In this document: positions 34,733 through 49,105 of the stretch, piece by piece
How the letters are laid out: each line of letters starts with the position of its first letter
How positions within the stretch are numbered: position 1 is the stretch's first letter
DNA from: [Empedobacter] haloabium
GTDB lineage: Bacteria; Pseudomonadota; Gammaproteobacteria; Burkholderiales; Burkholderiaceae_D
NCBI GenBank assembly: GCA_008011715.2
Contig: CP136508.1
Location: forward strand, 4,774,001 to 4,838,000
Reading direction: 5' to 3'
DNA: 64,000 bases
Program-made: the position numbers and the translations under genes
Notes under the pieces: generated by a model
What the model was told of the DNA's origin: nothing
Database searches by the model: none
Seen by the model: only the letters and a program-made list of their open reading frames with translations

Positions 34733-37700
34733 ATGACGATGACCGACCTGCAAGCACTGCTGGAAGCCCACCAGAGTACCCGCCTGTTGCGCCTGTCGTT
34801 CCCACGGGACGACGGACCGCAATCGACATTGATGGTCAACCGCTTCGAAGGCATGGAATACCTGTCGCGCGACTTCGAGTTCAAGGTGGAACTCCTGAGC
34901 GACGACGCCAGGATCGAACTGGAAGCGATGCATGGCAAGCTGCTGTGCGTGTCGCTGGTGCAGGCCGATGGCAGCCTGCGTCCGTTCACGGGTTACATCA
35001 CCTCGTTCAAGCTGGTCAAGACGGATGGCGGCGTCGCCTTCTACGAAGCCGTGCTGAGGCCATGGCTGGCCTACCTGCGCCTGCGCAAGAACAACCGCCT
35101 GTTCCATGAGCAGGGCTTGCGCGAGCAGGCCGAGGCGATCCTCGCCGGCTATGGCGGCTTGCCCGTGTGGGAATGGGAAGTGGCCGGCGAGCAGCCGCAG
35201 TTCACCATGGCCACGCAGTGGGACGAGACCGACCACAACTACCTGTGCCGACGCTGGGAAGCGGCGGGCTACAGCTATTGGTACGAACACAGCAGCGAGG
35301 GCCACACGCTCAAGGTCTGCGACGACACCCGCCTGGCGCCGCCGATCGATGGCCCGTCACCCGGCATCCGCTTCCAGCGCGCCGGCGGCGTGGCCGAAGA
35401 GGACGCGATCGGCGACTGGAGCCCCGTACGCCAGTGGGCGTCGACCCAGACGGCCGTCAGTGGCTTCGACTTCAAGAATCCGCGCCCGGTCCATGCCGAC
35501 AGCGTCACCGTCGACCAGCCGGGCGACGTGCCGCAGCTGGAGGTGCACAGCTATGAGGGCCATTACGGCTTCAAGCACCAGTCCGGCGCCTTTGACCTGT
35601 CGCGCCTGCGCATGGAAGAAATCGAAGCGCGCGGCAGGCTGGTCGAAGCACAAGGCAACAACCGGCGCGTCGCCCCGGGCCGGTCGTTCACGCTGCTCGA
35701 GCATTTCGGCGAAAGCAAGGAGAGCGAATTCCTGATCCTGCAGGTGCATCACGAAGCCAGCAACAACTACCTGCAAGGCAAGGGTGCGATCTCCGAATAC
35801 AAGAACCGCCTGCTGTGCCAGAGCAAGGCTGTGCCCTGGCGCCCGGGACGCGGCTACAACAGCACGGAGACCAAGCTGCTGGCCGTGCAAACCGCCATCG
35901 TCGTCGGTGCGCAAGGCCAGGGCAGCCTGAACGTGGACGAGTACGGTCGCGTCAAGGTCAAGTTCCACTGGGACCGCGACGAAAGCGGCAGCTGCTGGGT
36001 GCGGGTCGGCAGCAACTGGGCCGGCGCCGAGAAGGGCCTGGCCAGTCACCCGCGGGTCGGCTCGGAAGTGATCGTGCAATGGCTCGACGGCAATCCCGAC
36101 CACCCCATCGTCACCGGCGCCGTCTACAACCAGGACTATATGCCGCCATGGAAGCTGCCCGAGCAGCGCGCGCTGACGGGTCTGCGCAGCCGCGAGCTGA
36201 CGGCCGACGGCGGCAACACGCCGGGCGGGCGCAGCAATCACCTGGTGCTGGACGACACCCAAGGCCAGATCCAGGCCCAGCTCAAGAGCGACCATCTGGC
36301 CAGCCAGCTGAGCCTCGGCCATATCAGCCGCATCGAAGACAATGCCGGCCGCAAGGACGCGCGCGGCCAGGGCTTCGAGCTGCGTACCGACGGCCATGGC
36401 GCGGTACGCGCGCAGCAGGGCCTGCTGCTCAGCACCGAAGCACGGCCGAACGCGCGCGCCCACATCACGGATATGCCCGAGACGCTGGAGCGGATGACGC
36501 AGGGCCAGGACCTGCACGACAGCCTGTCGCAGGCCGCGCAGCAGGCGCAGGCGCACCAGCCGGGCGACCAGGACCAGGTGATCGCCGCGCTGCGGGCGCA
36601 GGTCGAGGCCCTGAAAGGCCAAGGCGGCACGCCGGCGCAAGGCGAGTTCCCGGAATTCCAGGCGCCGCACCTGACCTTGGCCAGCCCCGCCGGCATCGAA
36701 ACGACTACGCAGGGTTCCACCCACGTGATGAGCGTGGAGCACAGCGCGGTGACCAGCGGCGGCCACATCAGCCTGAGCGCGGGCAAGAGCCTGCTCGCCA
36801 GCGTCAAGGAAGCGGTGCGCCTGTTTGCCTACAAGGCCGGCATGAAGCTGGTGGCGGCCAGTGCCGACATCGACATCACGGCCTTGAAGGACAGCGTCAA
36901 CATCCTGGCCAAGCTCAACATCACCCATACCGCCAACAAGATCACGATCACGGCCAAGGAAGAGGTGGTGATCAACGGCGGCTCCAGCTTCAGCCGCTGG
37001 AACGCTTCGGGGATCGTCCACGGCACCAGCGGCAACTGGACGCAACATGCGGCGCACCACAGTTTCGTCCCCGCCAAGAGCGAGGGCACGCCCACCTTGC
37101 CGCAGCCCATGCAGCTGGAGCCGGGTAAGCTCGACCTCTATCACCAGTACGTGAATCCGGCAGGCGGCAAGAAGCAAGGCATCCGGCAAGGCGACTACAC
37201 GGTCGTCGATGCCGAAGGCGGCACGCACCAGGGCACGCTCGATGGCGAGGGCTTTAAGAGCGTGGCCGGCCTGCCGATGGGCACGGCCATGGTCACCTAC
37301 GGCAAGGACCCGCGCGATCCGTGGGACGATGGCAGCGTGCTTGGCCAGGATGCCGAGTGGCCGGCAACGCCGCTGCCCGAGGGCGACGCCCCTGCTGCGC
37401 CTTCGGCCGAATGGCAGGCGTCCGCGCCCGGGGCCGGGCTGCTGGCTGCCGCCGGTGCCGCGGCAGGCAAGATGAAGGGCGCGGCGGGCCAACTCGGCCC
37501 GGTGGCGCAGGCCGCGCAGAAGGCTGCTGGAGCCGTGCAGGCGCTGAAACAAGGCGGCGCGCAAGGCTTGCTGGCGTCGGCCGGACAGGCGGCCTTGGCG
37601 GACGCGGCGGGCAAACTTCCGGGCGGCGCGGCGGCCTTGAGCGCTTTTGGTGCGCTGGGCAACAAGCCGGCCGCTGCCATGCCGCCGGGCGTGCGTGGTT

Positions 37701-37759
37701 CGCTGCCGCACGCCGGCTCCGATGCAGCACCGGCGTCTTTGAAAAAGCTCACCGTCTAA
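34733..37759 (+). CDS. vgrG: Type VI secretion spike protein VgrG
   Basis: Trimeric tip of the T6SS tube that carries effectors into target cells. In the 1008 residues, about 15-370 is the gp27-like base and about 390-480 the gp5 OB fold (VDEYGRVKVKFHWDRD, VRVGSNWAGAEKGL). About 640-755 is the DUF2345 needle extension. About 798-865 is an extra beta-domain ending TYGKDPRDPWDDGS, and about 899-1000 is an Ala/Gly-rich amphipathic tail. The Rhs effector gene starts 6 nt after its stop, so the C-terminal extension is the likely docking site for it. No other T6SS structural genes are in the window. Confidence 0.95.
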   Translation: MTMTDLQALLEAHQSTRLLRLSFPRDDGPQSTLMVNRFEGMEYLSRDFEFKVELLSDDARIELEAMHGKLLCVSLVQADGSLRPFTGYITSFKLVKTDGGVAFYEAVLRPWLAYLRLRKNNRLFHEQGLREQAEAILAGYGGLPVWEWEVAGEQPQFTMATQWDETDHNYLCRRWEAAGYSYWYEHSSEGHTLKVCDDTRLAPPIDGPSPGIRFQRAGGVAEEDAIGDWSPVRQWASTQTAVSGFDFKNPRPVHADSVTVDQPGDVPQLEVHSYEGHYGFKHQSGAFDLSRLRMEEIEARGRLVEAQGNNRRVAPGRSFTLLEHFGESKESEFLILQVHHEASNNYLQGKGAISEYKNRLLCQSKAVPWRPGRGYNSTETKLLAVQTAIVVGAQGQGSLNVDEYGRVKVKFHWDRDESGSCWVRVGSNWAGAEKGLASHPRVGSEVIVQWLDGNPDHPIVTGAVYNQDYMPPWKLPEQRALTGLRSRELTADGGNTPGGRSNHLVLDDTQGQIQAQLKSDHLASQLSLGHISRIEDNAGRKDARGQGFELRTDGHGAVRAQQGLLLSTEARPNARAHITDMPETLERMTQGQDLHDSLSQAAQQAQAHQPGDQDQVIAALRAQVEALKGQGGTPAQGEFPEFQAPHLTLASPAGIETTTQGSTHVMSVEHSAVTSGGHISLSAGKSLLASVKEAVRLFAYKAGMKLVAASADIDITALKDSVNILAKLNITHTANKITITAKEEVVINGGSSFSRWNASGIVHGTSGNWTQHAAHHSFVPAKSEGTPTLPQPMQLEPGKLDLYHQYVNPAGGKKQGIRQGDYTVVDAEGGTHQGTLDGEGFKSVAGLPMGTAMVTYGKDPRDPWDDGSVLGQDAEWPATPLPEGDAPAAPSAEWQASAPGAGLLAAAGAAAGKMKGAAGQLGPVAQAAQKAAGAVQALKQGGAQGLLASAGQAALADAAGKLPGGAAALSAFGALGNKPAAAMPPGVRGSLPHAGSDAAPASLKKLTV

Positions 37760-37765
37760 CATTCC

Positions 37766-40700
37766 ATGACCGAACCCACGCATAAACCTGCCGAGCGCGC
37801 GCCCGAGGTCGCCGTCGCACCACTGAACACGATCGACCAGCAAGACGTCGGCGCGGCGGCGGCTGCCTTCGACAAATGGCTGCGCAAGATCAGCCACGAT
37901 TACGTCACGCTCGAGCGCCTCAGCACCGTGGCTGGCAGCCTGCCGGTCATCGGCAACATTATGGCGCTGATCGACGTCATCATGGACGTGGTTGGAATCA
38001 TCCAGAAATACATCGACAAAGGGAAAGACAAAGTCGATTTCCTGGCATGGGTCAGCCTGGGCATCAACCTGATCGGCGTGATCCCCCTGCCGGCAACGGC
38101 TGCGGCGCGCATGAGCCTGCGCCCTGCCTTGCACCTGGCTCGGCAAAAGCTGGCCATGGGTTTCAAGGATGTCGGCGCCACGCTGGTCGAGGTGCTGGCC
38201 GTGAACCTCAACGCGAAACTGGCCGGCGAGCTCGACACCTTTATCGACGGCGCGATGGCCAGGCTCTCCGGCATCCTGGACGATTGCGCCAGGATGGCCG
38301 ACGGCATTGCCGACGACCTGATCAAGATCCTCAGGCGCTGCATCGGCAAGGAACCGCTATTCGAGATCGCCTCGCCGGCGGAGGTGGAACACAAGCTGCA
38401 CGACCACAAGGTGCAGAGCAGCTGGCGCCGCATGCTGGGTGCGCTGGACCGGCATTACAAGAAGGCCGCAAACTATGCCGCAGCCACCGCGGCGCGCCAG
38501 CTGCCGCAGAGCGCGGTCGCTGGCGTGACAGTCATCATCACGCACCTGACCAACTTCAAGCCCGCGTTCCGCGCCCAGCTCACGGCCCTGGCCGACGAAA
38601 AGGCGCAGATGAGCATCAAGTGGATCCTGCTGCGCCTGCGCGACGCCGTCGTCAAGCACAAGAAGCGCCATGCGGTGCTGGTGCCGTCCGCCAAGGGCGC
38701 GCAGCACAAGAAGGACAACCCCGGCCACGAGCTGGAGGTCGTCAACAAGCAACACCCGGCCACGGGCGACGCCAATCAATGCAAGCTGTGCCCCGCCAAG
38801 GCCGCCACCGCCCACTCCATCAGCTTCGCCACCGGCGCCGAAACGTTCACGCATACCGACTTCGTGTTGGATGCGCCGCTGCCAATCGAGTGGAGCCGCA
38901 CCTATCGCAGCCAGCTGATCGCCTACGACAGCGGCAACCTGGGCGCGCGCTGGCTGACGCCGTACAGCACCCGCATCGACGTCATCGGCCAAGGCAAGCC
39001 CACTGGCCTGCTTTACCACGCCGCCGATGGCCGCAGCCACCGCTATCCCTGGCTGGCGGTCGGCGAAAAGCATCACGATCCGGTCGAGCAGATCACGTTG
39101 ACGCGCATGAGTGTCACGCTGCTCACGCTTGATTTCGGCAAGCCGCTGCCCGAAGGCCAACCAAGCCCGTGGCGAGAGACCTATGAATTGACCGACACGG
39201 TACGCAGCAAGGCGGCCGAAATAGGCAAGCAGCACTTCCGCCTGATCGCCATTCACGCCAAGGACGGCGCAGCCCTGGGCCTGCGCTACGACCACGTGGC
39301 CAATGGCGAGGCGGTGCTCAGCGACATCATCAGCAAGCAAGGCGACGCCATCGTCGCCCATGCCGGCACCCAAGTCGACGCCAATGGCCACATCGTCGCG
39401 CTGTGGGAAATCAAGGAAGGCCAGCTGGTGCGCCAACTGTCCGCCTACGACTACAACGAGCACGGCGACCTGATCTACGCCCAGGAAGAAAACGCGGCCG
39501 CCTGGCACTACCAGTACGACCGCCACCTCGTCACCCGCTACACCGACCGCACGGGTCGCGGCATCAACCTGGCCTACGACACCAGTATCGACAGCGGCGC
39601 CAATGCGAAAGCGATCCGCGAGTGGGCCGACGACGGCAGCCACGACACGCGGTTAGAGTGGGACAAGAACATCCGCCTGACCTACGTCACCGACGCGTTG
39701 GGCAACGAAACCCGCTACTACTACGACATCGCCGGCTACACCTACCGCACCATCTACGCGGACGGCCTGGAAGAATGGTTCTACCGCGACAATGCGAAAA
39801 ACGTCATCCGCCATATCCACACCGACGGCAACAGCGAGCATTTCCGTTACGACGACCACGGCAACCTGCTGACGCACACCCGAGCAGACGGCAGCCAGGT
39901 CCATTTCGAATACGACGCCCAACACCGCATTACCGGCATCCTCGACCCCGAAGGCGGCACGTGGAAGCGCGACTACGATGCCAAAGGCCACTTGGTCGAG
40001 GAAATCGACCCGCTCGGCAACAAGACCCAATACGCCTACGACAAGGCTGGCCGCCCCGTCGAAGTCACCGATGCCAAGGGCGGCGTCAAGAAGCTCGCTT
40101 ACACCCCGGACGGCCAGCTCGCCAGCTACACCGATTGCTCCGGCCACAGCACCCAGTGGCAATACGACGAGCGCAAGCGCCTCATCAAAAGCTTCGACGC
40201 CGCCGGCAACATCACGCGCTACCGCTACACGCCAGTCAGCGCCGAAGCGCTGACCTTGGCGCTCAGCGAAGAAACCGGCAATCACCCAGGCCAGCTCGAA
40301 GCCGTCATCCACCCCGACGGCAGCGAAGAGCAGTTGCGCCACGACGCCGAAGGCCGTCTGCTGGCGCACATCGACGCCCTGCAACGCACCACCAGGTACC
40401 GCTACACGGCGGCCGGCCTGATCGCGCAGCGCACCGACGCGCTGGGACACAGCCTGCGCTACCGCTGGGACGCGCTGGGCCGTCTGTCCGCGCTGGAAAA
40501 CGAAAACGGCAGCGTCTACCGATTCCAATACGACCCGGTGGGCCGCCTGCTGCAGGAGCAGGGCTTCGATGGCAAAGCGACCGAGTACCGCTACCACGAA
40601 GGAACTGGCGTGCTGGCGGAAACGGTCGAAGCCGGCGTGACCACACGTCTCGAGTTCGACGCCATGGGCAGGCTCATGCAGCGGCGCGCCGCCGCGCCAG

Positions 40701-42688
40701 GCCAGTCCGAGCAAATCGAAACCTTCGCCTACTACGCCAGCGGCCAACTGGCCGACGCAAAAAACGAACACGCCCGGCTGCAATGGTTCTACGACCCCGC
40801 CGGCAACCTGGTACGCGAGCACCAGCACTATCACGGCCCATTCCACCCCGACAAACGCACGGCGGTCTGGCACCACCGCTACGACGAACTGAACCAACGT
40901 ATCGGCACCACCCGCCCGGACGGCCACCGCATCGACTGGCTGACCTATGGCGCCGGCCACGTGCACGGCTTGCTGCTCGATGGGCAAGAAGTCGTGTCCT
41001 TCGAGCGCAACGCGCTGTATCAGGAAACCGCCCGTATCCAGGCCAACGGCTTGCTGCAAACGATGAAGTACGACCCGGCCGGCCGGCTGATCGAACAGCA
41101 GCTGGGCCGGAAGAACATGGAGTTCCACCCTGACCCATATCGTCCCGATGCGCAAGTCGGCATGCAAGCGGCAATCCAGCGGCGCTACCGCTACGACCGC
41201 TCCGGCCAGCTGACGAGTATCGACGACACCCGGCGCGGGCATATCGAATATCGCTACGACCCGATTGGCCGGCTGCTGGCGGCAAACAGCGCGATGGGGC
41301 ATGAGACCTTTGCGTTCGACCCTGCTGGCAATATCCAGGTGCCCGACACTACGCAGCAACACCAGAGCATTGCCACCCGCGTCTCGCTTCCTAAGGTGCT
41401 GGACAACCTGCTCAAGGAATACGCTGGCACCAGCTACCGCTACGACGATCGCGGTAACCTCATTGAACGGATGCACAATGGACAGCGCGATACGTTCGAG
41501 TGGGATGCTTTCAACCGGATGGCACGCGCCGCTACTAGGTCCGGCGTCATCTCCTTTGCCTACGATCCGTTGGGGCGGCGCATCGCTAAGCACAGCCAGG
41601 GGCTGAATGGAACTGGCCTGCGGCAAGCGACCCGGACCATGTACGGCTGGGATGGCAATACGTTGGCGTTGGAGAGCAGGGTCCACTACGGCCATATAAA
41701 CGACGAGCGGACGGTCCACTATGTGTACGAACGCGATAGCTTCGTGCCGCTGGTACATGTCACGCGAAACCGAACTCTGCAACTGGCACCTACAACCGAT
41801 GTCAAAGCGCTGATGGCGCGAAACGATGGCAAATACGACATTGCGCTCGATCCGCTATGGAACGGCGAATATGAGCAGGAAGCCGAGCCGTTTGGCAAAG
41901 ATGAGATCGCGTTCTATCAATGCGACCATCTCGGCACGCCTCAGGAATTGACGGATTGCGCAGGCAACGTCGCGTGGTCGGCACAGTACGAGGCATGGGG
42001 ACGAGCAAAAGAAGCAATCAGCAAAGCAGCCTACAAGGCCGGGATGTTTAACCCAATCCGCTTCCAGGGACAATATCTCGATGAAGAAACAGGGTTGCAC
42101 TACAACCGGTATAGATACTACGATCCCAATGGAAGTAGGTTCGTTAGCCAAGATCCAATTCGACTAAGTGGCGGCAATAACCTCCAGCAATACGCTCCAA
42201 ACCCTACCGAATGGGTTGACACACTTGGGCTCCATCGCTCCAGCTCAAGGGTCGGTAGTGAGAGCGGCTCGGGAGCAGCCTCACCTTGCTATGAAACTCT
42301 TTATCGAGGTGACAGTCGAGGCGGCGTCGCCTGGATGAAATCCCATGGAGCCAGGAACAGCGGCTATATGTCAGCCGTGAATCAGACGCATCTTTCAGAT
42401 CAAGACGTTTTGATGAAACAGCATGCCCGAGATAGCGTGACTCCGCCATCCCCGTATATTTCTGTAACGTCAGACCCACGTGTCGCCGAATACTTCGCCA
42501 CGAATGGGGGTACGACGCCGGGCGTGGTCTACACGCTGAAAGTGAAGTGCGGCAGAGGCATACAGAACAAATTTAACAATTTGGCTGTGCCAGCTGGTCC
42601 GGGTGGTAAGCTCATCTCTGAGGCAGAGTGGCTGATACCTGGCTATATTCGCCCAAGCGAAGTCGTAGGAAGGAGAAAAGTGCCATGA
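37766..42688 (+). CDS. Rhs polymorphic toxin with C-terminal ADP-ribosyltransferase-like domain
   Basis: Large T6SS-delivered effector of 1640 residues. Residues 1-250 are a helical header with two hydrophobic stretches (about 55-80 and 92-112); NQCKLCPAKA near 335 precedes the Rhs cocoon. YD repeats fill about 550-1300. The conserved cage end is RYYDPNGSRFVSQDPIRL (about 1447) and DTLGL (1485-1489), after which the 151-residue toxin begins. There, LYRG (R1514), SVTS (1566-1569) in PYISVTSDPRVAEYFA, and ExE (E1619, E1621) in SEAEWLIPGYI match the R-S-E pattern of ADP-ribosyltransferases. The domain assignment rests on these motifs. The gene lacks a PAAR domain; PAAR genes lie downstream. Its stop overlaps the candidate immunity gene. 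Confidence 0.9.
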   Translation: MTEPTHKPAERAPEVAVAPLNTIDQQDVGAAAAAFDKWLRKISHDYVTLERLSTVAGSLPVIGNIMALIDVIMDVVGIIQKYIDKGKDKVDFLAWVSLGINLIGVIPLPATAAARMSLRPALHLARQKLAMGFKDVGATLVEVLAVNLNAKLAGELDTFIDGAMARLSGILDDCARMADGIADDLIKILRRCIGKEPLFEIASPAEVEHKLHDHKVQSSWRRMLGALDRHYKKAANYAAATAARQLPQSAVAGVTVIITHLTNFKPAFRAQLTALADEKAQMSIKWILLRLRDAVVKHKKRHAVLVPSAKGAQHKKDNPGHELEVVNKQHPATGDANQCKLCPAKAATAHSISFATGAETFTHTDFVLDAPLPIEWSRTYRSQLIAYDSGNLGARWLTPYSTRIDVIGQGKPTGLLYHAADGRSHRYPWLAVGEKHHDPVEQITLTRMSVTLLTLDFGKPLPEGQPSPWRETYELTDTVRSKAAEIGKQHFRLIAIHAKDGAALGLRYDHVANGEAVLSDIISKQGDAIVAHAGTQVDANGHIVALWEIKEGQLVRQLSAYDYNEHGDLIYAQEENAAAWHYQYDRHLVTRYTDRTGRGINLAYDTSIDSGANAKAIREWADDGSHDTRLEWDKNIRLTYVTDALGNETRYYYDIAGYTYRTIYADGLEEWFYRDNAKNVIRHIHTDGNSEHFRYDDHGNLLTHTRADGSQVHFEYDAQHRITGILDPEGGTWKRDYDAKGHLVEEIDPLGNKTQYAYDKAGRPVEVTDAKGGVKKLAYTPDGQLASYTDCSGHSTQWQYDERKRLIKSFDAAGNITRYRYTPVSAEALTLALSEETGNHPGQLEAVIHPDGSEEQLRHDAEGRLLAHIDALQRTTRYRYTAAGLIAQRTDALGHSLRYRWDALGRLSALENENGSVYRFQYDPVGRLLQEQGFDGKATEYRYHEGTGVLAETVEAGVTTRLEFDAMGRLMQRRAAAPGQSEQIETFAYYASGQLADAKNEHARLQWFYDPAGNLVREHQHYHGPFHPDKRTAVWHHRYDELNQRIGTTRPDGHRIDWLTYGAGHVHGLLLDGQEVVSFERNALYQETARIQANGLLQTMKYDPAGRLIEQQLGRKNMEFHPDPYRPDAQVGMQAAIQRRYRYDRSGQLTSIDDTRRGHIEYRYDPIGRLLAANSAMGHETFAFDPAGNIQVPDTTQQHQSIATRVSLPKVLDNLLKEYAGTSYRYDDRGNLIERMHNGQRDTFEWDAFNRMARAATRSGVISFAYDPLGRRIAKHSQGLNGTGLRQATRTMYGWDGNTLALESRVHYGHINDERTVHYVYERDSFVPLVHVTRNRTLQLAPTTDVKALMARNDGKYDIALDPLWNGEYEQEAEPFGKDEIAFYQCDHLGTPQELTDCAGNVAWSAQYEAWGRAKEAISKAAYKAGMFNPIRFQGQYLDEETGLHYNRYRYYDPNGSRFVSQDPIRLSGGNNLQQYAPNPTEWVDTLGLHRSSSRVGSESGSGAASPCYETLYRGDSRGGVAWMKSHGARNSGYMSAVNQTHLSDQDVLMKQHARDSVTPPSPYISVTSDPRVAEYFATNGGTTPGVVYTLKVKCGRGIQNKFNNLAVPAGPGGKLISEAEWLIPGYIRPSEVVGRRKVP

Positions 42689-42972
42689 CAATTATTTCAA
42701 CCCACGATTTGCACCCAAGTGACGTACCTCCAGCAAATTGCAACTGGTCTACGTTTTCGGAGTTCGCCTTGACTTTTGACCCCATGGCCGAGGCTAAAGA
42801 CGAGTCCGATCAATTGCCAGCAAGTGCGACACCATCTGATATTTCGACTGCTGTGGCATTGAGATACTTTCTCTACTGTTGGCAACGCATCGGCAACAAT
42901 CAAGGGGGCTTAACCCCCGAGGCATTAGAGAAGGTTCAAACAGCTCTACATATTCTTCGCACAAAAGTCTGA
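42685..42972 (+). CDS. Candidate immunity protein for the Rhs-ART toxin
   Basis: A 95-residue soluble protein with no family I recognise. Its ATG overlaps the Rhs stop (ATGA), with AGGAAGGAGAA upstream inside the toxin gene, the classic position of a cognate immunity gene. It is mostly helical (DISTAVALRYFLYCWQRIGNN). A second copy at 47335 matches 81 of 95 residues, and ten of the fourteen differences fall in the first 22 residues. The immunity role is inferred from position. Confidence 0.75.
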   Translation: MTIISTHDLHPSDVPPANCNWSTFSEFALTFDPMAEAKDESDQLPASATPSDISTAVALRYFLYCWQRIGNNQGGLTPEALEKVQTALHILRTKV

Positions 42973-42973
42973 C

Positions 42974-43285
42974 CTGCAAATTCAGATTCCCTATTAGTAC
43001 CCTAGGAACTCAGTTCGACTACGGCAGTGCGGGTCGCTGACCCGCTACAGCGCTTCCGCGCAACCCAGCAGCCATTGGGGAATTTGACGGCACTAGTCGA
43101 AGAAAGCGTCGATAAAGATTTCATGCTGAATTCAATTTTCGCAAAACTAGGGCCTAGCAAAAAGGGATGGCAGCACTACCAACATAGAATGTGGCATGAC
43201 GCCTATAATCCCAAGAGATAATGGTCAAGTGTTGGGCGAACCCTTTCACCGATAGTGCTTACACTAAGAGGTGCAACTCAGGCCG
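42974..43285 (+). pseudogene. Broken copy of the 94-residue partner gene (intact at 47624)
   Basis: The DNA aligns along its length with 47624-47936, but the GTG start is CTG here, the eighth codon is TAG (42995-42997), and indels follow. Blocks such as CTACAGCGCTTCCGCGCAAC and TAATGGTCAAGTGTTGGGCG are shared. Similarity ends near AGGCCG at about 43285. With the immunity gene it forms one half of a roughly 625-bp direct duplication. Confidence 0.85.
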
Positions 43286-43520: not shown

Positions 43521-43657
43521 CTGGATTCAATCGAGCTGGCGAATCGTTGCCGACCACTGCGGGAATAAATATGTCGAAAAATAATTTGATCATTGTAGAT
43601 TTGCACCATGTTGCTGGTACAACGCTACTAGTTTCGGCAACGATGAGATTGTCGTGA
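43521..43657 (+). pseudogene. Remnant of a TNT toxin tail plus 5' part of its immunity gene
   Basis: 43521-43568 reads LDSIELANRCRPLRE-stop, matching the last residues of the TNT toxin at 46382 (GELIELPNRCPPPRK). Two bases later, 43571-43657 encodes MSKNNLIIVDLHHVAGTTLL and stops after 28 residues; it matches the start of the TNT immunity gene at 46386 (MSKNKLVIIDLKHVNGTPLP). Both parts are truncated. Confidence 0.75.
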
Positions 43658-43801: not shown

Positions 43802-44125
43802 ATGACAGCACAATACCGCAAGGATGAAATCGAAACACTTTTGAAGTCGAGCGATAGCAATGTAGTTATTGATGCACTTATGTATTTGTGCTTCAACATA
43901 AACGATCCGGATTGGGCCCAAGAGAAATGTCTTGATGCCATTGAAAATGGTATGAACGAGGATATCAGGGGTTTAGGAATTACATGCATCGGGCACATAG
44001 CAAGAATGCATGGCAAGATTGATAGACAAAAAGTAATGCCGGCGCTGGAGAGGAAACTCAAGGATAGCGCGCTATCTGGAAGAGCTCAAGATGCCATGGA
44101 TGACATAGAGACATTCGTGAAGTGA
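43802..44125 (+). CDS. HEAT-repeat-like small protein, candidate orphan immunity
   Basis: A 107-residue all-helical protein: two or three helix pairs resemble HEAT units (SNVVIDALMYLCFNIND, IRGLGITCIGHIARMHG, ALSGRAQDAMDDIETF). AAAAAGGAAATC gives a ribosome site. Base composition is markedly AT-richer than the chromosome. Helical-repeat proteins of this size are common immunity proteins in polymorphic-toxin loci; the cognate toxin is not present. Function is inferred from context only. Confidence 0.7.
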   Translation: MTAQYRKDEIETLLKSSDSNVVIDALMYLCFNINDPDWAQEKCLDAIENGMNEDIRGLGITCIGHIARMHGKIDRQKVMPALERKLKDSALSGRAQDAMDDIETFVK

Positions 44126-44861: not shown

Positions 44862-44962
44862 CTTCAAGGCTGTAACTAGACATCGCCCTTGCGTTTACAT
44901 TGCCACGAATCAATTAGTACTCCCTAGCGATTAGTCTCGTCAACGACCTCACTGGAGAACAA

Positions 44963-45241
44963 ATGTCCCTGAAAATCATTACAGTCGGCGACATGACCGA
45001 CCACGGCGGCACGGTAATAAGCGGCTCACCCAATCACGACATCCGCGGCAAGGCGATCGCCCGCGTGGGTGACAAAGTCGCCTGCCCGCTGGTCTACCCT
45101 GGCGGCAAGCCGCATGGGGTCAACAAGATCACTTCCGGCCACGATACGCTGACCGTTGACGGCATCGCTGTTGCGGTCGAGGGATGTACGACGGAATGTG
45201 GTTGCAAGCTGATCGGCAGCATGCCTGCAACGATTGGTTGA
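44963..45241 (+). CDS. PAAR-domain spike-tip protein, copy 1
   Basis: Sharpens the VgrG trimer and carries effectors in type VI secretion. The 92 residues MSLKIITVGDMTDHGGTVIS onward are a stand-alone PAAR domain. GSPNHDIRGKAIARVGDKVACP and HDTLTVDGIAVAVEGCTTECGCKL contain the zinc-binding His/Cys set. It differs from copy 2 (48827) by two residues. GGAGAACAA precedes the ATG. It is followed by an Rhs header remnant. Confidence 0.93.
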   Translation: MSLKIITVGDMTDHGGTVISGSPNHDIRGKAIARVGDKVACPLVYPGGKPHGVNKITSGHDTLTVDGIAVAVEGCTTECGCKLIGSMPATIG

Positions 45242-45321: not shown

Positions 45322-46382
45322 ATTGCCCAACGCGCGCCCGAAGTCGCCGTCGCCCCACTGAACACGATCGACCAGCACGACGTTGGCGCGGGAGCCGCGG
45401 CCTTCGACAAATGGCTGCGCAAGATCAGCCACGATTACGTCACGCTCGAGCGCCTGAGTACAGTGGCCGGCAGCTTGCCGGTCATCGGCAACATCATGGC
45501 GCTGATCGACGCCGTCATGGATGTCGTCAACGTTGTCCAGAAATATATCGCCAAGAAGGAAATCGAGTTCCTGGCATGGGTCAGCCTGGGCATCAACCTG
45601 ATCGGCGTGATACCCCTGCCCGCATCAAGCGCGGCGCGCATGAGCCTGCGCCCTACCCTGCACCTGGCCCGGCAGAAGCTGGCGATAAGCGCCAAGGATG
45701 TCGGCACCACGCTGGTCGAGGTGCTGGTCTTGCACCTCAACGCGAAGCTGGCCGGCGAGCTCGACACCTTTATCGACGGCGCGATGGCCAGGCTCTCCGG
45801 CATCCTGGACGATTGCGCCAAGCTGGCCGACGGCATCGCCGACGACCTGATCAATATCCTTAATCGCTGCATCGGCAACAAGCCGCTGTTCGACATCGCC
45901 GCACCGGCGGAGGTGGAAAGCAAGCTGCACGACCACAAGGTGCAGAGCAGCTGGCGCCGTATGCTGGGCGCCCTGGACCGGCAATATAAACGGGCCGCGA
46001 ACTACGCCGCGATGCAAAAGGGCGATTTGCCAAAGACCCAGGATGGCCGTCAAATTATGGGTTTGCGCCGGGGAAAGACTCTACAATTACACTGACGCCC
46101 GGCACTCAGATCGACCGCTTTGGACGGCCGACAGGTGGATTCGTCGCTCCCGCAGGAACACCCTTCGGTGATCGCGCGCTGCCTGCAGCGTCGTACAACG
46201 CGGAATATCACGTATATGAAGTGAAGAAGCCTATTGATGGCGTTCGAGCCGGACCAGCAGAACCTTGGTTCAATCAGCCCGGCAATGGAATTCAATATCA
46301 GCTTCCGCGAAGCGTTCAATCGCACCTAAACGCGGGGGAGCTAATCGAACTGCCGAATCGTTGTCCACCACCGCGGAAATAA
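45322..46382 (+). pseudogene. Rhs header joined to a TNT (NAD glycohydrolase) toxin domain, frameshifted
   Basis: 45331-46015 encodes the same header as Rhs residues 12-238 (RAPEVAVAPLNTIDQ to NYAA) but has no ATG; the first usable start is GTG 45463. The whole Rhs core is missing. From about 46011 a different frame reads NYGFAPGKDSTITLTPGTQI, then DRFG, GTPFGDRAL, PWFNQPGNGIQYQL and ends PPPRK at 46382: the tuberculosis-necrotizing-toxin (TNT) fold with its Arg and Gln active-site positions. A one-base shift near CAAAAGGG separates the frames. It is probably a deletion relic of a second Rhs toxin. Confidence 0.82.
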
Positions 46383-47254: not shown

Positions 47255-47334
47255 GGGGACGCCGAGGAAAAATTCCTGAAGATCAAGGATGAGTGTACAC
47301 TCTCGAAGCGAAATCGCAGGAAGGGGAAGGCATC

Positions 47335-47622
47335 ATGGCCACTATTTCAACTCAAAATCTGCGCAGAAGCGATGTACCTTTAGAAAAATGCAACTGGTAT
47401 ACATTTTCGGAATTCGCCTTGACCTTCGATCCCATGGTCGAGACTAAAGATGAATCGGATCAATTGCCAGCAAGTGCGACACCATGTGATATTTCGACTG
47501 CTGTGGCATTGAGATACTTTCTCTACTGTTGGCAACGCATTGGCAACAATCAAGGCGGCTTAACCCCCGAGGCATTCGAGAAGGTTCAAACAGCTCTACA
47601 TATTCTTCGTACAAAGGTTTGA
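47335..47622 (+). CDS. Second copy of the Rhs-ART candidate immunity protein
   Basis: A 95-residue paralogue of the protein at 42685 with 14 substitutions. From CNWxTFSEFALTFDPM onward it is nearly identical, while the first 22 residues diverge. GGAAGGGGAAGG precedes the ATG, and the homology with copy 1 starts about 30 bp before it, in what was the toxin 3' end. No toxin precedes it now, so it is an orphan; it may protect against a sister strain's variant toxin. Confidence 0.75.
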   Translation: MATISTQNLRRSDVPLEKCNWYTFSEFALTFDPMVETKDESDQLPASATPCDISTAVALRYFLYCWQRIGNNQGGLTPEAFEKVQTALHILRTKV

Positions 47623-47623
47623 C

Positions 47624-47908
47624 GTGCAAATTCAGATGCCCGATCAGTACACCTTGGAACTCAGTTCGACTACGGCAATCGGGATCGCGGACACACTACA
47701 GCGCTTCCGCGCAACCCAGCAGCCACTGGAAAATTTCACGGTCGTAATCGAAGAAGGCGACGATAAAGATATCCTTCTGATTTCGTTTATCTCGAAACTA
47801 AAGCTTGGCAAAAAGGGGCATGGCAGTATTAACAGCATGGGGCTTGGGATAACGTATCGCATCCGCAGAGATAATGGTCAAGTGTTGGGCGAATCCTTTC
47901 ACCGATAG
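47624..47908 (+). CDS. 94-residue partner of the immunity gene (intact copy)
   Basis: Starts at GTG one base after the immunity stop, so it is translationally coupled. MQIQMPDQYTLELSSTT leads into a compact alpha/beta protein with many charged residues (VVIEEGDDKDILLISFISKL). Family unknown. The copy after the intact toxin is broken, so it is not needed for immunity there, or its role is served by this copy. Confidence 0.65.
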   Translation: MQIQMPDQYTLELSSTTAIGIADTLQRFRATQQPLENFTVVIEEGDDKDILLISFISKLKLGKKGHGSINSMGLGITYRIRRDNGQVLGESFHR

Positions 47909-47940
47909 TTACCACGCCAAGCTGCAACTTAGGCCGGTAA

Positions 47941-48647: not shown

Positions 48648-48826
48648 TGGCACACCGTCGAAAATTTCGCCATGCCATATTCAATGCGTGGCTGGATCGA
48701 CAGAAGCACAACAGCCAGTTTGCTCACGCTTACCGCACCACGATAGCTAAGCAGGGTCTGTTACCAGCCCAGCTCCAGCCGCAGATCCCTCGTATTTACC
48801 GGCGTTACCGATTCACAGGAGTATAA

Positions 48827-49105
48827 ATGTCACTGAAAATCATTACCGTGGGCGACATGACCGACCACGGCGGCACCGTCATCAGCGGCTCGCCCAACCA
48901 CGACATCCGCGGCAAGGCGATCGCCCGCGTGGGTGACAAAGTCGCTTGCCCGCTGGTCTACCCCGGCGGCAAACCGCACGGTATCAACAAGATCACTTCC
49001 GGCCACGATACGCTCACTGTGGACGGCATCGCTGTTGCGGTCGAGGGATGTACGACGGAATGTGGCTGCAAGCTGATCGGCAGCATGCCTGCAACGGTCG
49101 GTTAA
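48827..49105 (+). CDS. PAAR-domain spike-tip protein, copy 2
   Basis: 92 residues, identical to copy 1 except V to I in KPHG(V/I)NK and I to V in the last PAT(I/V)G. CACAGGAGTATAA is a good ribosome site. It is the last gene of the effector island; CCACTAACATTG after it matches the sequence that follows copy 1, where an Rhs header remnant begins, so an Rhs gene probably once followed here too. Confidence 0.93.
   Translation: MSLKIITVGDMTDHGGTVISGSPNHDIRGKAIARVGDKVACPLVYPGGKPHGINKITSGHDTLTVDGIAVAVEGCTTECGCKLIGSMPATVG

Follow-up and report, generated by a model that had tools for sequence, protein, structure and literature searches.

What does the C-terminal tip of an Rhs effector from [Empedobacter] haloabium do, and which gene protects its producer? 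The effector is encoded at positions 37766 to 42688 of a stretch of 64,000 nucleotides, here called the window (assembly GCA_008011715.2, contig CP136508.1, positions 4,774,001 to 4,838,000). A sequence-only reading had assigned the last 151 residues after DTLGL, as probable, to the R-S-E class of ADP-ribosyltransferases (ARTs), with the gene at 42685 as the partner to check. The best mechanism is a mono-ADP-ribosyltransferase delivered by type VI secretion (T6SS), probably arginine-specific, with a small helical immunity protein that acts sterically. Protein mono-ADP-ribosylation and the gene at 42685 as immunity gene, taken jointly, are given a probability of about 0.7. The features that carry this reading are as follows.

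37766..42688, + strand: rhs effector gene, an uninterrupted open reading frame (ORF) for 1640 amino acids
Rhs protein: DUF6531 at residues 350-427, YD/RHS repeats, RHS-associated core at 1408-1489, ART tip at 1490-1640
42218..42232, + strand: DTLGL, residues 1485-1489, where the Rhs core ends and self-cleavage is presumed to occur
42233..42685, + strand: predicted ART toxin tip, residues 1490-1640, 151 amino acids
42287..42289, + strand: C1508, conserved, just N-terminal to predicted strand 1
42305..42307, + strand: R1514, region-1 arginine in LYRGDSR (RxDxR)
42461..42472, + strand: S1566-S1569 in YISVTS, region 2
42548..42550, + strand: C1595, conserved, just C-terminal to the predicted strand E101-109
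42620..42628, + strand: E1619-A-E1621, region-3 EXE
42685..42972, + strand: probable cognate immunity gene, 95 amino acids

The protein has the layout of a T6SS Rhs effector, in which RHS repeats (PF05593, 2.9e-73) and an RHS-associated core (TIGR03696, residues 1408-1489, both from a domain scan of the Rhs protein) precede a variable tip. The core ends in PNPTEWVDTLGL and the tip begins at residue 1490, the boundary that had been drawn from the letters; LYRG (1512-1515, with R1514), SVTS (1566-1569) and E1619/E1621, within the ISEAEW that starts at 1617, likewise lie where they had been placed.

The tip matches TreX, an Rhs ADP-ribosyltransferase of Xenorhabdus bovienii (Dumont et al. 2024, as cited in the available part of PMC12605009), at E 2.5e-8 in a phmmer search of PDB sequences. 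Its AlphaFold2 (AF2) model has the predicted ART split-beta fold, and a Foldseek search of 350,542 PDB chains returned four matches at E <= 0.001, all of them chains of TreX, with cholera-toxin A1 and pertussis-toxin S1 next in rank. A fold unlike that of ARTs had been named as a result that would overturn the R-S-E reading; the best fold matches are these ARTs, and the assignment exceeds a chance spacing of motifs because the TreX sequence match and the predicted fold agree. The enzymatic activity is thus far a prediction, in which we regard an ART fold and the use of NAD as very likely.

Transfer does not follow from an ART fold by itself, since Tne5, a published Rhs tip with this fold, has NAD glycohydrolase activity (PMC13285283, available part). 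A tip that kills in the same way, by depletion of NAD(P), would have a further parallel in NarE, which partial accounts describe as hydrolysing NAD. TNT is a NADase family, and an orphan TNT-type tip lies 3.3 kb downstream, so that this array may include NAD-directed tips. The pocket of Tne5, however, is described as Lys/Glu with a non-critical Glu, whereas the R-S-ExE set is intact and conserved here, and the closest relative, TreX, is termed an ADP-ribosyl transferase in PMC12605009; a glycohydrolase is therefore considered improbable.

The pattern for the CT group of ARTs, as given in the accessible text of PMC3000352, consists of [YFL]RX in region 1, [YF]-X-S-T-[SQT] in region 2 and [QE]-X-E in region 3, where EXE goes with arginine targets and QXE with Asn, Gln or Cys. 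Conservation of the tip residues was counted in aligned rows, with the window sequence included in every count. In region 1, YRG is kept in all five covering rows and fits the pattern, and RGDSR agrees with RxDxR in four of the five, the row L002 reading RGDSA. S1566 is invariant (10/10 rows of A3) and, judged from the alignment, the serine of the R-S-E set is this first S of SVTS. The region-3 ExE is found in 9/9 covering rows, as EAE in the window; P0059 stops before it. Two cysteines are conserved as well, C1508 in four of five covering rows and C1595 in nine of ten, and both are missing from L002. This last sequence, from Pelomonas sp. CA6 (L002 5821-6432), is a distant ART with YRG/FVSTS/EAE, 30% identity and neither conserved cysteine, and it is followed by an unrelated downstream protein.

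Arginine specificity is a guess based on the EXE rule, and we lean towards arginine as the acceptor without great assurance. The same rule speaks against an ART whose substrate is RNA or DNA and not protein. Such enzymes exist among Rhs tips, RhsP2 and RhsF-CT being described as acting on RNA, but these carry an R-Y-E triad in the accounts available, S1566 is invariant here, and Scabin/ScARP fall 3.5 Z units below TreX in the fold search. A nucleic-acid target is accordingly rated unlikely.

The gene at 42685 is a genuine ORF of 95 codons, as had been supposed, with an ATG that overlaps the rhs stop codon (ATGA) and an AAGGAG just upstream, and it is very probably the immunity gene. The best model of its product is all-helical, and the segment WQRIG (W66-Q67-R68-I69-G70) is invariant across the 50 rows of A4. 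Both clear tip loci in 392 family genomes, those of the window and of G316, have the immunity gene directly downstream; in G316 the two genes are incomplete, and the immunity gene starts on the final base of the tip match. Among 72,556 plasmid records the tip occurs in one and the immunity protein in one, and both are the same Acinetobacter plasmid, in which the two homologues adjoin, their annotated coding sequences sharing 4 bases just as the genes of the window do. The tip on this plasmid is fragmentary, with a match to 62 of the 151 residues, and Acinetobacter belongs to a different bacterial class than the window genome. Seen from the immunity gene, six loci were found in five of the 392 family genomes, two of them directly behind clear tip DNA. 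Three of eight database tip proteins pair with an immunity homologue, indirectly, through equal-sized longest contigs (P0057/P0025, 7039; P0058/P0022, 3084; P0059/P0031, 4104). The immunity protein had no match in Pfam at E <= 1, its family had none among PDB sequences up to E 10, and its model had none in the PDB by Foldseek at E <= 0.001, with TriX absent among the fold matches listed; neither Pfam nor the PDB yielded a named relative, and the literature searches gave no account of it.

Besides the caution raised by Tne5, several findings weigh against the joint reading of transfer and immunity. The TMq values to TreX in Foldseek are moderate (0.50 to 0.54), and the five AF2 models of the tip differ, with mean pLDDT (the confidence score of the model) from 86.0 to 71.9. 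No Pfam model exceeds its cut-off for the tip, the best being NarE (PF21641) with 19.8 bits against 27, and region 2 of the window, YISVT, is one position off the CT-group pattern, with Val for Thr. The five immunity models spread more widely than those of the tip (pLDDT 94.1, 92.2, 74.3, 62.0 and 55.6). As for linkage, five of the eight database tip proteins lack a size-matched immunity homologue, the Pelomonas ART has no homologue of the immunity gene in the 7.1 kb examined, and the locus in G031 shows only a weak upstream tip remnant (39% over 36 residues, E 0.011). No upstream tip match was found at three of the six immunity loci, namely G320 and G377 (each within 1.5 kb upstream) and the second copy in the window. 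These three loci, together with the further small ORFs downstream in the array, would fit a different arrangement, in which 42685 is not the immunity gene and the true one lies further on, for example at 43802 or 44403. The identical tip/immunity junction in G316 and, in another bacterial class, on the Acinetobacter plasmid argues against it. Rhs arrays can be expected to hold orphan immunity copies, and we read the three tip-less loci as orphan immunity genes that remained after tip displacement; a more distant immunity gene is very unlikely.

Delivery of the toxin would depend on two neighbouring spike genes.

34733..37759, + strand: VgrG spike gene (Pfam Phage_GPD 3e-69, T6SS_Vgr 9e-37, DUF2345 2e-46), upstream of rhs with a gap of 6 bases
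44963..45241, + strand: PAAR spike-tip gene (Pfam PAAR_motif 8e-23)

In the proposed mechanism, VgrG and the PAAR protein would carry the Rhs effector through type VI secretion, with the Rhs shell enclosing the C-terminal tip until a cut after DTLGL1489 frees it. The rule for self-cleavage of Rhs proteins is PxxxxDPxGL (PMC13324451, available part), and a cut after DTLGL1489 is deduced from it; the window has DTLGL and not DPxGL, and the corresponding motifs are DTIGL in P0002, DPSGL in P0003 and DPLGL in P0055. In the rival bacterium, the tip would bind NAD through R1514 and S1566 and use E1621 for the transfer of one ADP-ribose onto its target, while E1619 of the EXE would favour arginine as the acceptor, carried by an essential protein of the cytosol. 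The 95-residue helical product of 42685 would shield the producer, probably by blocking the active site and not by undoing the modification. An effector aimed at eukaryotic hosts could be suspected from the nearest Pfam name, NarE, which is said in partial accounts to act on human cells, and from the host-directed toxins among the fold matches. A dedicated, linked immunity gene, however, would be sensible only if the toxin acts on bacteria, and a eukaryotic target is most improbable. Two TssB loci were found in the genome by a T6SS search based on TssB, both more than 1 Mb from the rhs gene of the window, so that the VgrG-Rhs-PAAR island sits apart from them. Residues 1-349 of the Rhs protein (37766-38812) have no Pfam match and contain hydrophobic stretches. 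The N-terminus is shared by further rhs genes of this genome (G000:C1 2883442-2884473, 3654007-3655035, 1960577-1961605 and 3620615-3621612), at 82-83% identity for three full ones and at 87% and 93% for two pieces that overlap.

The tip is rare, occurring in 1 of 74 genus, 2 of 392 family, 1 of 399 order and 1 of 369 class genomes, counts that each include the window genome and come from overlapping draws. That the tip travels as a module is suggested by the carrier P0003, whose N-terminus is of another kind (PF13665). The immunity homologue P0047 comes from Massilia sp. YIM B02443 (Oxalobacteraceae) and has the sequence found at the G377 locus; G377 belongs to the family of the window genome, which is therefore probably Oxalobacteraceae.

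Downstream of the effector lies an array of duplicated and displaced pieces.

45324..46010, + strand: second, truncated copy of the rhs N-terminus, 88% identical to 37789-38481
46020..46382, + strand: displaced TNT-type tip of another rhs gene, without an Rhs core (Pfam TNT PF14021, 3.1e-32)
47306..47909, + strand: 84% duplicate of 42655-43256, a block made up of the tip end, the immunity gene and some 290 bases; of the tip, the duplicate keeps roughly the final 30 bases
47335-47622, + strand: second, intact orphan immunity copy, its protein 85% identical to the 42685 product

The truncated rhs N-terminus and the core-less TNT tip both lie between the two copies of the immunity block. Comparison of the immunity copies gave a nonsynonymous divergence (dN) of 0.071 against a synonymous divergence (dS) of 0.383, with dN/dS 0.19, which suggests that the second copy is under constraint; it may give protection from related tips carried by other strains. 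The ORF that starts after the TNT tip may be the immunity gene of that tip, and a weaker pair of this kind ends near 43569. Two PAAR-gene regions, 44949-45239 and 48813-49103, are 92% identical and flank the remnant array. In G031, the rhs gene upstream of the immunity gene (L006 2-910) bears a different tip with a weak ART-tip remnant behind it, likely an example of tip displacement. The array illustrates how Rhs loci retain old immunity genes once their tips have been displaced.

Taken as a whole, the tip is rare and ordinary in kind, and its immunity protein is one for which no named Pfam or PDB relative was found. It carries the TreX branch of antibacterial ARTs into a lineage that probably belongs to Oxalobacteraceae and, by way of a fragment, into Acinetobacter, and links the branch to an immunity protein that lacks a Pfam or PDB relative in the searches made.

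Among known systems TreX is the nearest, related by sequence and predicted fold, and the window tip probably works like it. The TreX structures are PDB 8s2m, 8s2n and 9gco, of which 8s2n is titled TreTu and has the same protein sequence as TreX. The TreX chain has 140 residues, and the end of the window tip model (155) aligns at TreX residue 122, so the C-terminal extension is absent; region 2 reads FVSTT in TreX and YISVT in the window. The extension reportedly binds thioredoxin, and TreX is reported to be free of cysteines; the window tip has C1508 and C1595. The earlier remark that the tip fits no named T6SS toxin family is thus amended. A relative, the Rhs ART TreX, can now be named, but the immunity protein appears to differ and, with the extension missing, the tip is a relative of TreX and is not classed as TreX. 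An extension-less relative provides a natural comparison for the question of how such a toxin could dispense with a host chaperone. We entertain, as rather unlikely, a joint extension of this comparison, in which the tip and its homologues form a separate TreX-like branch that folds without thioredoxin, the extension having been lost or never present. C1508 and C1595 could then serve as a redox switch or disulphide clamp between adjacent strands, the immunity protein would represent a new family of all-helical inhibitors with WQRIG entering the NAD site, and the target would be one new for antibacterial ARTs.

The likeness to NarE of Neisseria meningitidis (PF21641, PDB 2kxi) consists of the YIS segment with the next helix and strand (profile E 0.0015); all nine rows of A1 match PF21641 at E <= 1, and the window alignment, scoring below the Pfam cut-off, is limited to this short segment. 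Tox-ART-RSE (Zhang et al. 2012, PMC3482391, available part) is an R-S-E clade with RxDxR/S/E in common with the window and is listed with RHS and T6SS, but its listed immunity is Imm41 and ADP-ribosylglycohydrolase, whereas the window has a 95-residue protein that is helical in its best model. RhsP2 and RhsF-CT are likewise Rhs ART tips, and RhsF-CT has a small downstream immunity protein, RhsFi, described in the available text as occluding the active site. Tne5 of Pluralibacter gergoviae shares an ART-fold Rhs tip with the window and is set apart from it by its description, in which, as far as the available text goes, no transfer to protein was detected.
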